A stretch of 64,000 nucleotides of DNA from positions 1-64,000 of the forward strand of contig NZ_LGHL01000128.1 in assembly GCF_001908205.1 (NCBI RefSeq). Direction: 5' to 3'. Each line of letters opens with the position of its first letter. The stretch's first letter is position 1. The stretch comes from Bradyrhizobium sp. NAS80.1 (GTDB taxonomy: Bacteria > Pseudomonadota > Alphaproteobacteria > Rhizobiales > Xanthobacteraceae). Below the pieces are notes generated by a model, which worked only from the letters and a program-made list of their open reading frames with translations, made no database searches and was not told the origin of the DNA. The translations under genes and the position numbers were made by a program. Positions 35,200 through 40,534 of this stretch are shown piece by piece.

Positions 35200-35928
35200 A
35201 TGTCCGCCGTAGATTATGGCCGGGAGGCGCTCGACTTCATCGAAGGTCTGGGGACCTATCGCAAGGTTCCGGATGCCATGGATGCGCTCGAAGTAGCCTT
35301 TGGCCGCTTCGGCTTCGAAACCATCATTCTAACGGGATTGCCGAATCCCGACCAGCAGTTTGCACAGATGGTCCTCGCCAAGCGCTGGCCGGCGGGATGG
35401 TTCAGCCTCTACACCGAAAACAACTACGATCGCTTCGATCCGGTGGTGCGGCTGTGCCGTCAATCCGTCAATCCGTTCGAGTGGTCGGAAGCGCCCTACG
35501 ATGCCGAACTCGAGCCCTGTGCGGCCGAGGTGATGAACCGCGCCACCGATTTTCGCATGTCGCGCGGCTTCACCGTCCCGATCCACGGGCTTACCGGTTA
35601 CGAGGCCGCGGTGTCGCTCGGCGGTGTCCATCTCGACCTCAATCCCCGCAGCAAGCCGGCGCTGCATTTGATGGCGATGTATAGCTTCGACCACATTCGC
35701 CGTCTGCTCGACCCGGCGCCCGATCAGTCGACACGCCTCACGCCGCGCGAGCGCGAGGTGATCGCCTGGGCCTCGCAGGGCAAGTCGGCCTGGGAAATCG
35801 GCGAGATCCTGCACATCACGCAGCGTACCGCCGAGGAGCATCTTGCAACCGCAGCGCGCAAGCTCGGCGCCGTCAACCGTACGCATGCTGTTGCGCTGGC
35901 GATTCGCCACAAGATCATCAGTCCCTGA
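35200..35928 (+). CDS. bjaR1: LuxR-type receptor BjaR1 (isovaleryl-homoserine lactone)
   Basis: A 242-residue quorum-sensing receptor. The signal-binding domain (about 1-165) has the conserved Trp, Tyr, Asp and Pro in WFSLYTENNYDRFDPV, Trp in FEWSE and Gly in HGLTGYEAA. The DNA-binding domain (about 175-240) reads LTPREREVIAWASQGKSAWE and so on. The start at 35200 follows AGGA. BjaR1 of Bradyrhizobium responds to very low levels of isovaleryl-homoserine lactone and activates bjaI. The adjacent synthase with 85 bases between them is the same arrangement. The name rests on this pairing and the recognised sequence. Confidence 0.9.
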   Translation: MSAVDYGREALDFIEGLGTYRKVPDAMDALEVAFGRFGFETIILTGLPNPDQQFAQMVLAKRWPAGWFSLYTENNYDRFDPVVRLCRQSVNPFEWSEAPYDAELEPCAAEVMNRATDFRMSRGFTVPIHGLTGYEAAVSLGGVHLDLNPRSKPALHLMAMYSFDHIRRLLDPAPDQSTRLTPREREVIAWASQGKSAWEIGEILHITQRTAEEHLATAARKLGAVNRTHAVALAIRHKIISP

Positions 35929-35935
35929 GCGACAT

Positions 35936-35954
35936 ACTGAATGGAATTCCCAGT
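35936..35954. promoter_or_regulatory. candidate lux-box before bjaI
   Basis: ACTG (35936-35939) and CAGT (35951-35954) are inverted outer arms of a 19-base imperfect dyad with GGAATTCC inside. It lies 59 bases before the bjaI start, close to where a LuxR-type activator binds. Confidence 0.45.
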
Positions 35955-36013
35955 ACCGAACGTTCCCCTTTTCGCGGAGGCTTCCCCCATTAAGCGCGAA
36001 TGGGGTGGAGGCC

Positions 36014-36670
36014 ATGATTCACGCAATTTCTGCGGTCAATCGCCACCTCTACGAAGACGTGCTCGAGCAGCATTTCCGGCTGCGTCACGACATCTTTGTC
36101 GAGGAACGGCGCTGGGAGGCGCTGCGCAAGCCGGATTGCCGCGAGATCGACTCCTATGACAACGAAGACGCTGTCTATCTGCTCGCGCTGGAGGGGCGCC
36201 GCGTCATTGGCGGTCACAGGCTCTACCCGACGACCAAACCCTCGATGATGAGCGAGGTCTTCCCGCATCTGGCTACGGTTCGCGGTTGCCCCGCGGATCC
36301 GCTGGTCTGGGAATGGTCGCGCTATTTCGTCGTACGCGATCGCCGCGACGGCGCTCTCAATCTGCAATTGATGGCGGCGGTCCAGGAGTTCTGCCTTGGC
36401 CAAGGCATCGCGCAGGTCAGCGCGATCATGGAAACATGGTGGTTGCCGCGCTTCCATGAAGCCGGCTTCGTCGTGACACCGCTTGGTCTGCCGGCGCTGG
36501 TGGAGAACGCGTGCACCATGGCGGCGACCATCGACATTCGACAGGACACGCTCGCTGCCCTGCACAATCGCATTGGCATGACTTCGGTCGTGCGCCAGGA
36601 CGGCCCACGTCTGAACGCCGTCGCCCGTGCCAACCTCTGCGGCCTCGCCGCGCAACGAAAGATCGCCTGA
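36014..36670 (+). CDS. bjaI: isovaleryl-homoserine lactone synthase BjaI
   Basis: A 218-residue acyl-homoserine lactone synthase. All core residues of the LuxI family are present: Arg, Phe and Trp in FRLRHDIFVEERRW, the Asp pair in EIDSYDNEDAVYL, Arg in GGHRLYP, and Glu and Arg in VWEWSRYF. BjaI is known to use isovaleryl-CoA and S-adenosylmethionine, in contrast to most LuxI enzymes, which use acyl-ACP. GGTGGAG precedes the ATG. It is followed after one base by a small gene, which must be cotranslated. Confidence 0.92.
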   Translation: MIHAISAVNRHLYEDVLEQHFRLRHDIFVEERRWEALRKPDCREIDSYDNEDAVYLLALEGRRVIGGHRLYPTTKPSMMSEVFPHLATVRGCPADPLVWEWSRYFVVRDRRDGALNLQLMAAVQEFCLGQGIAQVSAIMETWWLPRFHEAGFVVTPLGLPALVENACTMAATIDIRQDTLAALHNRIGMTSVVRQDGPRLNAVARANLCGLAAQRKIA

Positions 36671-36671
36671 A

Positions 36672-36890
36672 ATGTCGAACATGATGCGAGACAGCCAGAT
36701 CATGGCGCAGACCAAGGACGATAATCTCGGCTACATGTCCGACATGGCGCTTGAACTGGCGCAGATGGCGGAAGACTCCGGACTGGCGACGCTCGCCTAT
36801 CTGTTCCGGATGGCCGCGCTGGAGGCCTCGACGGCAAGCAGCGGGCTCGCCGAACCGGATGATCTTCCCCGGTCGATGACGTCGCACTAG
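36672..36890 (+). CDS. small protein coupled to bjaI
   Basis: A 72-residue protein whose ATG lies one base after the bjaI stop codon, so its translation depends on bjaI. It is Met-rich at the start (MSNMMRDSQIMAQ) and helical in the middle (MALELAQMAEDSGLATLAYL), with no membrane segment or signal peptide. I do not recognise the family. Its expression should rise with quorum sensing. It could modulate the synthase or act as a small regulator; there is no sequence evidence for either. Confidence 0.75.
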   Translation: MSNMMRDSQIMAQTKDDNLGYMSDMALELAQMAEDSGLATLAYLFRMAALEASTASSGLAEPDDLPRSMTSH

Positions 36891-37194
36891 ACTAGGCGCA
36901 CCCTCCTTTCATACCCACGACGTTCGCGCCCTCTCCTCGGCTTGCTCGCCGGGAAGGGCGATCATTTGGGTGCGGCAGCTTGCCCCATCCGCGCGGCAGC
37001 CTTCTTGCAGGGTGGATTTCGACCGCACCGGCCTGGATGCAACAAAGTGCATATCTGGCGCCAAATCGCTCTTGCCTCGGAACGATACTGCCATTACCCA
37101 TTTTTCTGCCTTGAAGAGGCGGGGGGAGCTCTTTCACTGATGGCGACCGTGTTCGAACATCGGCGCGGCACTGCGTGCGCCTGAAAGAGTTTTG
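36891..37194. other. gap between the bja locus and the second liv operon
   Basis: No gene, repeat family or clear hairpin was found. The stretch is somewhat poorer in G+C around 37040-37110 and must hold the promoter of the livHMGF operon unless that operon is read through from bjaI. Confidence 0.5.
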
Positions 37195-38112
37195 ATGCTG
37201 CTCGTCGTCGAACAGTTCTTGAACGGATTGCAGTTCGGCCTGCTCCTGTTTCTGCTCGCCGCCGGCCTGACGCTGGTGTTCGGGATCATGGATCTCGTCA
37301 ACCTCGCGCACGGCTCGCTCTACATGATGGGCGCCTATTTTGCGGCGACCTTCGCGGCCTGGACCGGCAGTTTCCTGCTCGGCGCTCTGCTGGCGCTCGG
37401 CGCTACGCTCGTGCTCGGCATCGTGCTCGAGATGAGTGCGCTGCGGCATCTCTATGGGCGAGACCATCTCGACCACGTGCTCGCGACCTTCGGCCTGATC
37501 CTGTTCTTCAATGAAGCCGTGCGGCTGATCTGGGGCCCTGCCGGTCTTGCGCTGCCGCTGCCAGCCTGGCTCACGGTGCCGGTGCCGATCCTGCCCGGCA
37601 TTCACTATCCCGCCTATCGCCTCGCCATCATCGTCGTCGCGCTGCTGGTGGCGCTGCTGCTTTATCTCGGCGTGATGCGCACCCGCGTCGGCATGCTGAT
37701 CCGAGCCGGCGCCTCCAACCGCGAGATGATCGGTGCGCTCGGCATCAACATCAAGCTGCTCTACACGCTGGTGTTCGGCCTCGGCGCTGCGCTCGCGGGG
37801 CTCGCCGGGCTGATGCAGGCGCCGATCCTCACCGTGCAGATCGGCATGGGCGAGAACATCCTGATCCTCGCCTTCGTCATCATCGTGATCGGCGGCATCG
37901 GCTCGATCCGCGGCGCGTTCCTCGCCGCGATCTTCGTCGGCATGATCGATACGCTCGGCCGCGCCTTCCTGCCCAACCTGTTGCGGCAGGTGCTGAGCTC
38001 GGCTGCCGCCTCCACCGCCGCGCCCGCGCTGTCCTCGATGCTGATCTATCTCCTGATGGCGATCGTGCTGGTGGTGCGGCCGGAGGGGCTGTTTCCGGCC
38101 AGCCGTCGATGA
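37195..38112 (+). CDS. livH: LIV-type ABC transporter permease LivH (second set)
   Basis: A 305-residue permease with LNGLQFGLLLFLLAAGLTLV, the FGIMDLVNLAHGSLYMMGAY block of LivH and a docking loop near IRAGASNREMIGALGI. ATG 37195 was chosen; a TTG at 37192 precedes it directly. It overlaps livM by four bases at its end. This set has no binding-protein gene. It is on the same strand as bjaI, about 300 bases after the small coupled gene. Confidence 0.9.
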   Translation: MLLVVEQFLNGLQFGLLLFLLAAGLTLVFGIMDLVNLAHGSLYMMGAYFAATFAAWTGSFLLGALLALGATLVLGIVLEMSALRHLYGRDHLDHVLATFGLILFFNEAVRLIWGPAGLALPLPAWLTVPVPILPGIHYPAYRLAIIVVALLVALLLYLGVMRTRVGMLIRAGASNREMIGALGINIKLLYTLVFGLGAALAGLAGLMQAPILTVQIGMGENILILAFVIIVIGGIGSIRGAFLAAIFVGMIDTLGRAFLPNLLRQVLSSAAASTAAPALSSMLIYLLMAIVLVVRPEGLFPASRR

Positions 38113-39053
38113 AGGGTTTTGGCGTGAGCAAAGCCGTCACGGCCCTGATGCTGGCCGGCCTCGTGCTGCTGCCGCTCTATTCGCAGCTCTCCGGCAACAT
38201 CTTCATCCTGACGCTGTTTACCCGCATCGTCATCCTGGCGCTGGCGGCCGCAAGCCTCAACCTCATCATGGGCTATGGCAGCATGATGAGCTTTGGCCAC
38301 GCCGCCTATCTCGGCATCGGCGGCTATGCGGTCGGGATTCTCGCGCAGGAAGGCGTCGGCTCCGGCTTCATCCAGTTTCCGGTCGCGCTGGCCGCCTCGG
38401 CGGCTTACGCGCTCGTGATCGGCGCGCTCAGTTTGCGCACCCGCGGCGTCTATTTCATCATGATCACGCTCGCCTTCGCGCAGATGGCTTATTACGTCGC
38501 CTCCGGCCTTGCGCGTTACGGCGGCGACGACGGCCTTACAGTCTACAAGCGCAGCGACTTCTCCGGGCTGATCAACCTGTCGAACCGCACGCAGTTCTAC
38601 TATCTCTGCCTCGCCTGCCTCCTCGGCGTGATCTTCCTGATCTGGCGCATCGCCAATTCACGCTTCGGCCTCGTCGTGCAGGGCCTGCGCTCCAACGAGC
38701 AGCGCATGCAGGCGATTGGTTTCCCCGCCAAGCGCTACCAGCTCGCCTGCTTCGTCATCTCAGGCACCATGTGCGGCCTCGCCGGCGCGCTGCTCGCCAA
38801 CAACACCGATTTCGTCAGTCCCGCCGTGATGTACTGGACGCGTTCCGGCGACCTCATGGTGATGGTGATCCTCGGCGGCATGGGAACGCTGTTCGGCCCG
38901 GTGATGGGCGCCGTCGTCTATCTGCTGCTGGAAGAGTTTCTGTCGCAGATCACCGAATATTGGGCGCTGTTCATGGGCCCGTTGCTGCTGCTGATCGTGC
39001 TGTTCGGCCGCGGCGGCATCATGGGTCTGCTCGGGAGGGTTGGCCGTGGCTGA
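38109..39053 (+). CDS. livM: LIV-type ABC transporter permease LivM (second set)
   Basis: A 314-residue permease with about nine membrane segments, the block LIMGYGSMMSFGHAAYLGIG and a docking loop near LRSNEQRMQAIGFPAKRYQ. It overlaps livH by four bases and livG by eight. With livH it forms the channel of an importer whose ligand is not indicated by any attached binding protein. Confidence 0.9.
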   Translation: MKGFGVSKAVTALMLAGLVLLPLYSQLSGNIFILTLFTRIVILALAAASLNLIMGYGSMMSFGHAAYLGIGGYAVGILAQEGVGSGFIQFPVALAASAAYALVIGALSLRTRGVYFIMITLAFAQMAYYVASGLARYGGDDGLTVYKRSDFSGLINLSNRTQFYYLCLACLLGVIFLIWRIANSRFGLVVQGLRSNEQRMQAIGFPAKRYQLACFVISGTMCGLAGALLANNTDFVSPAVMYWTRSGDLMVMVILGGMGTLFGPVMGAVVYLLLEEFLSQITEYWALFMGPLLLLIVLFGRGGIMGLLGRVGRG

Positions 39054-39813
39054 ACCCCTGCTCCGCGTCGAAAAGCTGGTGCGCCGCTTCGGCGGCATTA
39101 CCGCGACGGACAACGTCTCGCTCGACGTCGCGAGCGGTGAGCTGCACGCCATCATCGGCCCGAACGGCGCCGGCAAGACCACGCTGATCGCCCAGCTGAC
39201 CGGCCATCTGGAGCCCCATTCCGGCAGCGTCTCGCTCGGCGGCCGAGACATCACTTACCTGCCGGCCTATCGCCGCTGCGCGCTAGGCCTTGCCCGCTCG
39301 TTCCAGATCACCTCGCTGCTGCTCGACTTCACCGCCGCCGACAATGTCGCGCTGGCCGCGCAGGCCCATGCCGGCACGTCGTTCCGCTTCTTCGCCAACG
39401 CCCGCAAGGAGAAAGCCCTGCGCGATGCGGCGCGTGCCGCGCTCGATCGCGTCGGCCTGTTGCACCGCGCCGACGTCGTGGTCAGCAGGCTCAGCCATGG
39501 CGAGCGGCGTGAGCTCGAGCTCGCGGTGGCGCTCGCGAGCAAGCCGAAGCTGCTGCTGCTCGACGAGCCGATGGCGGGCCTCGGCGTCACCGAGTCACAG
39601 CGCATGGTGAAGCTGCTCCAGGAGCTGCGGAAAGACGTCTCGATCGTGCTGGTCGAGCACGACATGCCCGCGGTCTTCGCGCTCGCCGACCGCATCTCGG
39701 TGCTGGTCTATGGCCGCGTCATCGCCTCGGGCGATCCCGCCGCGATCCGCCAGAACGAAGAGGTCAAGCGCGCCTATCTCGGCGATCAGCATGTGGTGAC
39801 GCACCATGGCTGA
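39046..39813 (+). CDS. livG: LIV-type ABC transporter ATPase LivG (second set)
   Basis: A 255-residue ATPase with Walker A GPNGAGKTT, the LivG block LGLARSFQITSLL, signature RLSHGERRELELAVAL and Walker B LLLLDEPMAGL. The GTG at 39046 is preferred because GGGAGG lies eight bases upstream; TTG 39040 is in the same frame but would sit too close to that site. It overlaps the end of livM by eight bases and the start of livF by eight bases. Confidence 0.9.
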   Translation: MAEPLLRVEKLVRRFGGITATDNVSLDVASGELHAIIGPNGAGKTTLIAQLTGHLEPHSGSVSLGGRDITYLPAYRRCALGLARSFQITSLLLDFTAADNVALAAQAHAGTSFRFFANARKEKALRDAARAALDRVGLLHRADVVVSRLSHGERRELELAVALASKPKLLLLDEPMAGLGVTESQRMVKLLQELRKDVSIVLVEHDMPAVFALADRISVLVYGRVIASGDPAAIRQNEEVKRAYLGDQHVVTHHG

Positions 39814-40534
39814 AAAGGTGATGGCTGACACTTTGCTCGACGTCGACAGCATCGAGACCTGCTATGGGCTCTCGCAGGTGCTGTTCGGCTTGTCCCTGTC
39901 GATCAAGTCCGGCGAGATGGTCTCGCTGATGGGCCGCAACGGCATGGGCAAGACCACCACCATCCGCTCGATCATGGGCCTGACGCCGGCGCGTGCCGGC
40001 GCGATCCGTTTTGCTGGCGCCGAGGTGCGACAGCTTCCGTCCTACCGGATCGCGAAGCTCGGCGTCGGACTCGTGCCCGAAGGACGCCAGATCTTCCCGA
40101 ACCTCACCGTGCGCGAAAACCTGGTCGCGGCCGCGGCCGATCGCTTCGGCAGCAGCAATCCCTGGACGCTGGCCGCCATCTACGTCATGTTTCCGCGCCT
40201 CGCCGAGCGCGCGTCCAACATGGGCAACCAGCTCTCCGGCGGCGAGCAGCAGATGCTGGCGATCGGCCGTGCGCTGATGACCAACCCAAAACTCCTGATC
40301 CTGGATGAAGCGACCGAGGGGCTGGCGCCGCTGATCCGCGAAGAAATCTGGCACTGCCTGTCGCTGCTGAAGAGCCGGGGACAGTCGATCCTGGTCGTCG
40401 ACAAGAACGTCGACCACCTCGCCCGCATCTGCGACCGCCACTATATCATCGAGCGCGGCAAGACGGTGTGGAGCGGCACGTCGGACGAACTCATGGCCGA
40501 GCCCGACCTGCAGCACAAATATCTCGGGATTTGA
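39806..40534 (+). CDS. livF: LIV-type ABC transporter ATPase LivF (second set)
   Basis: A 242-residue ATPase. It has a modified Walker A, GRNGMGKTT, which is usual in LivF proteins, the block VGLVPEGRQIFPNLTV, signature QLSGGEQQMLAIGRAL and Walker B LLILDEATEGL. Another ATG 15 bases downstream (39821) is possible. It ends the second liv operon; a family C repeat follows. Confidence 0.9.
   Translation: MAEKVMADTLLDVDSIETCYGLSQVLFGLSLSIKSGEMVSLMGRNGMGKTTTIRSIMGLTPARAGAIRFAGAEVRQLPSYRIAKLGVGLVPEGRQIFPNLTVRENLVAAAADRFGSSNPWTLAAIYVMFPRLAERASNMGNQLSGGEQQMLAIGRALMTNPKLLILDEATEGLAPLIREEIWHCLSLLKSRGQSILVVDKNVDHLARICDRHYIIERGKTVWSGTSDELMAEPDLQHKYLGI

Follow-up and report, generated by a model that had tools for sequence, protein, structure and literature searches.

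A small CinS-like protein encoded directly behind bjaI as a probable output arm of bja quorum sensing in Bradyrhizobium

A 72-aa protein, hereafter S, is encoded one base past the AHL synthase gene bjaI of Bradyrhizobium sp. NAS80.1, and S is a genuine gene. It is probably a CinS-type anti-repressor that serves as the density-dependent output arm of bja quorum sensing, and the PraR ortholog encoded beside lnt is its likeliest partner, a choice that we hold with about even confidence. The stretch of DNA analysed here (the window) comprises 64,000 nucleotides, from position 1 of contig NZ_LGHL01000128.1 onwards, and all bja genes described below lie on its forward strand.

Within the window, bjaR1 (35200-35928) encodes a LuxR-type receptor and activator of 242 aa (Pfam PF03472 Autoind_bind, E 2.2e-30; PF00196 GerE, E 1.1e-14), and bjaI (36014-36670) encodes an acyl-CoA type AHL synthase of 218 aa (PF00765 Autoind_synth, E 6.2e-19), which is a class A allele as defined below. 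BjaI matches the solved chain 5w8a of the PDB at E 8.6e-133, and the locus thus combines, as expected of a bja system, a LuxR gene with an acyl-CoA type LuxI gene close to the solved BjaI. Upstream of bjaI, a lux-type dyad (35936-35954, with no strand assigned) reads ACTGAATGGAATTCCCAGT here and ACTGGGAAATTTCCCAAT in the consensus of its relatives; it is conserved across 47 aligned upstream regions and is the probable BjaR1 site. S (36672-36890) follows the bjaI stop codon in the order TGA-A-ATG, and a weak ribosome-site-like stretch, GAAAGA (36657-36662), lies within the end of bjaI, 9 bases 5' of the S start codon. The locus and the one-base gap are as described in the initial annotation. 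The spacing, the gene order and the conserved dyad suggest that translation of S is coupled to that of bjaI and that S rises with the signal. Genes for an ABC transporter of the branched-chain amino-acid type, recognised from their translations, are found at 37192-40534, about 300 bases past the bja operon.

Full-length S is present in 77 of 146 genomes of the genus, with 68-93% identity when the window's own copy is excluded. An ortholog of bjaI (at least 72% identity) occurs in 76 of the 146, and S adjoins it in all 76; the remaining genome with S, G007, has no bjaI ortholog. A total of 48 genus loci were read, made up of the best S matches and 18 loci picked for divergence. All 48 contain a match to bjaR1 (broken in one, L047), and 47 contain bjaI, with a gap of exactly one base to S in each of the 47; the exception, L034, has lost bjaI. 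Judged by coordinates only, 76 of 77 paired places are consistent with the one-base gap, and the other deviates from it by 1 base. The six bases GAAAGA are identical and stand 9 bases 5' of the S start codon in 45 of 47 loci. In one genome (G011:C16:668072-668287 and 791912-792127), the bjaI-S pair occurs twice, as oppositely oriented copies that are separated by about 124 kb and have equal match scores. A search of the plasmid collection for S gave zero matches.

S is under frame-specific purifying selection. Among 45 distinct 72-aa alleles (L034, L035 and L036, in which S is not 72 aa long, were left out), dN/dS is 0.165 in the S frame versus 1.5 and 1.8 in the two alternative reading frames, and 0.154 in bjaI at 34 loci of equal length. 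Selection is strongest over the core, residues 18-52 (NLGYMSDMALELAQMAEDSGLATLAYLFRMAALEA, 36723-36827), where dN/dS falls to 0.064. S, which matched zero families in Pfam and NCBIfam at E<=1, might for that reason be taken for a frame without a functional protein, either a chance frame or an RNA element. The selection on its 45 alleles argues against this reading, a chance frame is excluded by the full-length presence of S in 77 of 146 genomes and beside bjaI in 76 of 76, and we leave next to no probability to either version. The conservation beside bjaI across bradyrhizobia that the initial annotation had proposed to look for is thereby established.

Among 397 genomes of the order, 122 gave a match to an S profile at E<=0.01, and 113 of these 122 genomes are not Bradyrhizobium, although a few of the weaker matches, which lie in very long open frames, may be chance. 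The 21 best non-genus matches were read, and all are short frames with the common core pattern YIxxMxxELxxMAxxxGLxxLAYLLxMAxxEA. Of these, 17 lie between topA and dprA, one adjoins topA only, one dprA only, and two neither. No BjaR1- or BjaI-like match was found in the 3-kb loci of the 21, a point against the bja output role considered for S. The core of this family aligns nearly gap-free with that of S, and the profile match is clear (hhalign score 83.2, versus 19.1 for the best of 60 column shuffles). These short hairpin-type proteins of Hyphomicrobiales (L057-L077) form, as far as described, no named family. Based on this comparison, S is a member of an undescribed small-protein family whose Bradyrhizobium branch lies within the bja operon. 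The window genome also carries a weak family member beside topA (E 3e-4; L248, G000:C23:9332).

This ancestry raises another explanation, namely that S performs a housekeeping role common to the topA-dprA family and has merely hitched to the operon. The position of 17 of the 21 non-genus homologs between topA and dprA, outside quorum-sensing operons, would fit such a role, as would the weak member beside topA in the window genome and the intact S of L047 (G013:C16:140500-145500), where an internal part of bjaR1 is missing and bjaI is broken into two frames, through decay or assembly error. In Bradyrhizobium, however, S is associated with bjaI genus-wide and has been kept behind the bja dyad even after loss of bjaI. 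The housekeeping explanation is consequently regarded as very improbable, and a function within the bja system is preferred.

Among characterised proteins, CinS of Rhizobium leguminosarum offers the closest parallel. As described in passages of two papers (PMC4149787, PMC3356288), CinS has 67 residues, is co-transcribed with cinI in the cinR-cinI-cinS array of strain 3841 and binds PraR. A scan of named genomes gave CinS-like frames at 42 loci, all 42 of which overlap by ATGA with a preceding ORF longer than 150 codons, and the CinS profile was built from the 31 distinct sequences of these loci, including a 67-aa frame of strain 3841 (NC_008380.1). The R. leguminosarum CinS-like frame (P0002, 67 aa) follows an annotated AHL synthase and a LuxR regulator, and the ORF overlapped in strain 3841 shares 98% identity with the annotated synthase; we infer firmly from sequence and position that the 67-aa frame of strain 3841 is CinS. 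The S locus has the same luxR-luxI-s array with a small protein, of 72 aa versus the 67 aa of CinS, directly past luxI. CinS overlaps its luxI gene by ATGA, whereas S is separated from bjaI by one base, and the CinS system uses a long-chain AHL, whereas the S system is of the isovaleryl-HSL type.

At the level of sequence, the profile of S alone did not match the CinS profile significantly; its score of 16.6 was below that of the best shuffle (19.4), with a probability of 3.4 and a misalignment. In contrast, the topA-linked family without S matched CinS with a score of 37.7 (shuffle maximum 13.3, 60 shuffles), and S together with the topA family with 36.9 (shuffle maximum 14.4). The putative homology between S and CinS therefore rests on a transitive link through the topA-linked family, over a stretch of 23 columns. 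In the profile comparison, G37 of S is aligned onto G35 of CinS, which is the turn position in both predicted hairpins, and both proteins have a second helix of the YLLxMA type. AlphaFold2 models predict helices 3-36 and 39-57 in S (mean pLDDT 82.8 from a single sequence) and helices 2-34 and 37-66 in CinS (mean pLDDT 85.5 from 22 sequences), so that the predicted fold of S is a two-helix hairpin like that of CinS, a feature that we ourselves chose as a mark of the CinS family. Searches with CinS and with the S family against solved structures returned zero entries at E<=0.001, the best being unrelated proteins at 0.43 and 0.013, respectively. The topA-linked relatives, CinS and an MmaP-like protein gave zero usable families in Pfam and NCBIfam; an integrase-domain match at E 0.14 was discarded.

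A second protein of this kind is MmaP of Methylobacterium fujisawaense (59 aa), encoded, like S, immediately downstream of a luxI-type gene (mmaI). According to passages of PMC10790750, MmaP is co-transcribed with mmaI and binds a PraR ortholog. In our profiles, MmaP-like proteins (L144, L164 and L208, which we take to be MmaP by inference) matched CinS weakly (24.3, shuffle maximum 15.3), whereas their comparison with S and the topA family was not significant (9.4, within the shuffles, maximum 15.8).

For a wider comparison, 110 luxI loci of the order were compiled, 30 plus 80 that were fetched (79 among the matches listed and one from the bjaI ortholog search). Small coupled ORFs, defined by an ATG between -8 and +50 relative to the end of luxI and a length of 45-110 aa, account for 31 of the 881 downstream reading frames at these loci. 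Of the frames matched by a profile of S and the topA family without CinS, such ORFs made up 3 of 3 (E<=0.01), 5 of 5 (E<=0.1) and 6 of 8 (E<=1), with Fisher p values of 4e-5, 4e-8 and 3e-8, respectively, and the two best matches of this profile are CinS-like frames with an ATGA overlap with luxI. Most luxI genes have no such partner, because coupled ORFs are only 31 of 881 frames and only 6 of the 31 are family-like at E<=1. When eleven hand-picked luxI-linked small ORFs were compared as single sequences, 7 beat all 100 shuffles and 4 did not, and the probability exceeded 25% in only two (L121, 80%; L142, 68%). The coupled small ORFs of L121, L142, L179 and L183 share a similar second helix (e.g. 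LSYFLKMA, AKYLIDMA) and are candidate CinS-like partners. L137 and L152 (family f42) carry a different ORF of 94-95 aa; the two are alike and overlap the luxI end by eight bases. At luxI loci on plasmids of Rhizobium, Shinella, Agrobacterium, Devosia and Sinorhizobium, 0 of 446 frames reached E<=1 with the S/topA profile, whereas one matched the CinS profile (E 0.75). The window genome has two further luxI genes of another type (G000:C400:56704 and G000:C81:1492), with no S match nearby.

As expected of a genome with a CinS-type protein, the window genome encodes a PraR ortholog. CinS inactivates PraR in R. leguminosarum (passages of PMC4149787), and metK and trmB lie downstream of praR for both the CinS-bound and the MmaP-bound PraR proteins (passages of PMC10790750). 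A search for praR upstream of metK was unsuccessful in the window genome, where metK is located elsewhere. With HTH_3 and synteny to lnt as guides, a 137-aa PraR-like protein was located behind lnt (G000:C46:64505-64915), with 62% identity to the copies in two Rhizobium-type genomes, in which lnt also adjoins praR. Of 30 PraR-like loci checked, 14 are adjoined by lnt and the remainder are mostly paralogs. In five of the 14 (L227-L230 and L233, all in different genomes within the order, including one from the same family), the order is lnt-praR-metK, which supports the orthology of the lnt-linked protein. By contrast, in L231 and L232, presumed Methylobacterium relatives, the best PraR-like match reaches 44% identity, and both lnt and metK are absent from the surrounding 1.5 kb. 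A PraR-like protein was found in 16 of 16 genomes asked, and its presence alone thus does not discriminate. PraR identity is 97-98% in three genomes with S versus 84-88% in five without; it was rejected as evidence of interaction, as the neighbouring lnt and M20 peptidase genes follow the same pattern.

PraR binding is established for CinS, whereas for S it is proposed by analogy. S might instead act, still as a CinS-like anti-regulator, on another Xre-type regulator such as a PraR paralog (e.g. G000:C180:3274) or on a partner that it has in common with the topA-dprA family. This is suggested by the 2 to 4 PraR-like matches per genome in nine Bradyrhizobium genomes, i.e. further paralogs, by the profile scores of S, which are higher with the topA-linked family than with CinS, and by the second CinS partner that the CinS authors inferred (a passage of PMC4149787). 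The PraR proteins bound by CinS and MmaP are, however, those of the metK/trmB-followed genes (PMC10790750, in part), which in Rhizobium-type genomes are lnt-linked like the gene found here. A different partner is hence considered rather unlikely, and the lnt-linked PraR ortholog is retained as the presumed target.

The initial annotation had suggested that S could be a missing modulator of the bja signal. The gene is indeed real and conserved, but the variation of the bja locus makes such a role less likely than that of an output arm. L047, with its broken bjaR1 and bjaI, was left out of the allele comparisons. In identity to the window copies, bjaR1 and bjaI are strongly correlated (rho 0.82, n=46), S is not correlated with bjaR1 (rho 0.23, p 0.12), and S and bjaI are weakly correlated (rho 0.34, p 0.02). 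Over all pairs of the 46 loci, rho of nucleotide identity is 0.83 for bjaR1-bjaI, 0.13 for bjaR1-S and 0.06 for bjaI-S, versus 0.54, 0.16 and 0.12 for the downstream flank with S, bjaR1 and bjaI, respectively (given without p-values, since pairs are not independent). The bjaI genes fall into two classes, A with 22 loci and B with 24, L035 being intermediate and counted as B; as some loci were picked for divergence, these counts are not frequencies. Identity within and between classes is 0.879 and 0.785 for bjaI and 0.887 and 0.824 for bjaR1, versus 0.882 and 0.883 for S and 0.889 and 0.892 for the downstream flank. The classes are separated without overlap by 9 columns in BjaI and 3 in BjaR1, and the solved BjaI chain, compared by eye, has the class A residues at all 9 BjaI positions.

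Pairwise comparisons locate the boundaries of the variable block. Between G134 (class B, L295) and G076 (class A, L297), identity is mostly 92-99% on either side and drops to 75-88% within an island of about 1.5 kb. This island starts shortly before bjaR1 and reaches to the last ~90 bases of bjaI, with S outside it at 98-99%. G134 and G128 (L296) give the same pattern plus an upstream indel, and the island is less clean between G086 and both G022 and G123 because the flanks vary too. Three of four pairs with identical S proteins (again without L034, L035 and L036) combine strongly different bjaI alleles, and one identical S protein follows BjaI alleles with 78% and 91% identity to that of the window. 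These loci bear the marks of a replacement of bjaR1-bjaI as a unit, a block of about 1.5 kb, while S would have stayed with the chromosome. It is a guess on our part that class B produces a different signal.

In L034 (G007:C79:12500-17500), bjaI is reduced to about its last 83 bases, while a full-length bjaR1 (88% identity), the dyad (CACTGGGAAATTTCCCAATA) and S, which starts 143 bases past bjaR1, are retained. Compared with its nearest relative, this S has a pN/pS of 0.26 (0.25 in the core), and it thus remains under constraint, with the core perhaps less constrained than elsewhere. The lineage is possibly listen-only for the bja signal; it need not be mute, as a second, distant luxI is found elsewhere in G007 (E 1.5e-10).

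Small helical anti-activators of the TraM and QseM kind exist, and S, which shares an operon with bjaI, might likewise act on BjaR1 or BjaI as an anti-activator or modulator that tunes the signal by feedback, to which the weak correlation with bjaI in identity to the window copy would also be congenial. Over all pairs, however, S tracks neither bjaR1 nor bjaI, an identical S stands behind divergent BjaI alleles, and S persists in L034 without a usable bjaI. Nor does S match any family at E<=1 in Pfam or NCBIfam, libraries that contain a TraM model, and cinI transcription and product are reported as unchanged in a cinS mutant (a passage of PMC3356288). Feedback on the signal is accordingly judged improbable, and S is preferred as the output arm.

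If S acts in this manner, accumulating isovaleryl-HSL would lead BjaR1, acting at the dyad (35936-35954), to switch on a joint messenger of bjaI and S, from which S would be translated through coupling to bjaI. The two-helix hairpin of S may then bind and inactivate a PraR-type Xre/HipB repressor, most likely that of G000:C46:64505-64915, and genes controlled by PraR would track cell density; in the Rhizobium counterpart, these concern attachment, exopolysaccharide and further quorum-sensing genes. A similar logic, with a small anti-repressor acting against a biofilm repressor, is seen in SinI/SinR of Bacillus subtilis, a likeness drawn in a passage of PMC4149787.

The kind of protein to which S would belong is already known from CinS and MmaP. 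In the ranked listings and passages of the open literature searched, neither S nor the exchange of bjaR1-bjaI alleles is described; the suggestion in the initial annotation that the gene is new to the bja system thus holds for the gene and not for its kind. Table 1 of a 2018 review (PMC5977203, in part) gives the phenotypes under bjaI/bjaR1 as 'Unknown', and in a colony-arrest test a bjaI mutant behaved like the wild type (a passage of PMC11896636). Mutants of bjaI may be polar on S, for which cinI/cinS provides a precedent (PMC3356288, in part).

In summary, S offers a concrete target for the output of bja quorum sensing in the form of the pairing of S with PraR and of the genes that PraR controls. 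Exchange of signal and receptor with the output kept is better known from peptide pherotypes. For bja, a comparable arrangement is conceivable, if somewhat short of probable: an exchangeable signal-receptor cassette, with A and B alleles and maybe different signals, would be joined to a constant CinS-like output, S, of topA-linked ancestry, so that recombination swaps the 'language' while the response via PraR stays constant, and lineages like G007 may listen without speaking. The allele exchange makes testable the proposal that an AHL synthase and its receptor can be swapped as a unit while the output is kept.
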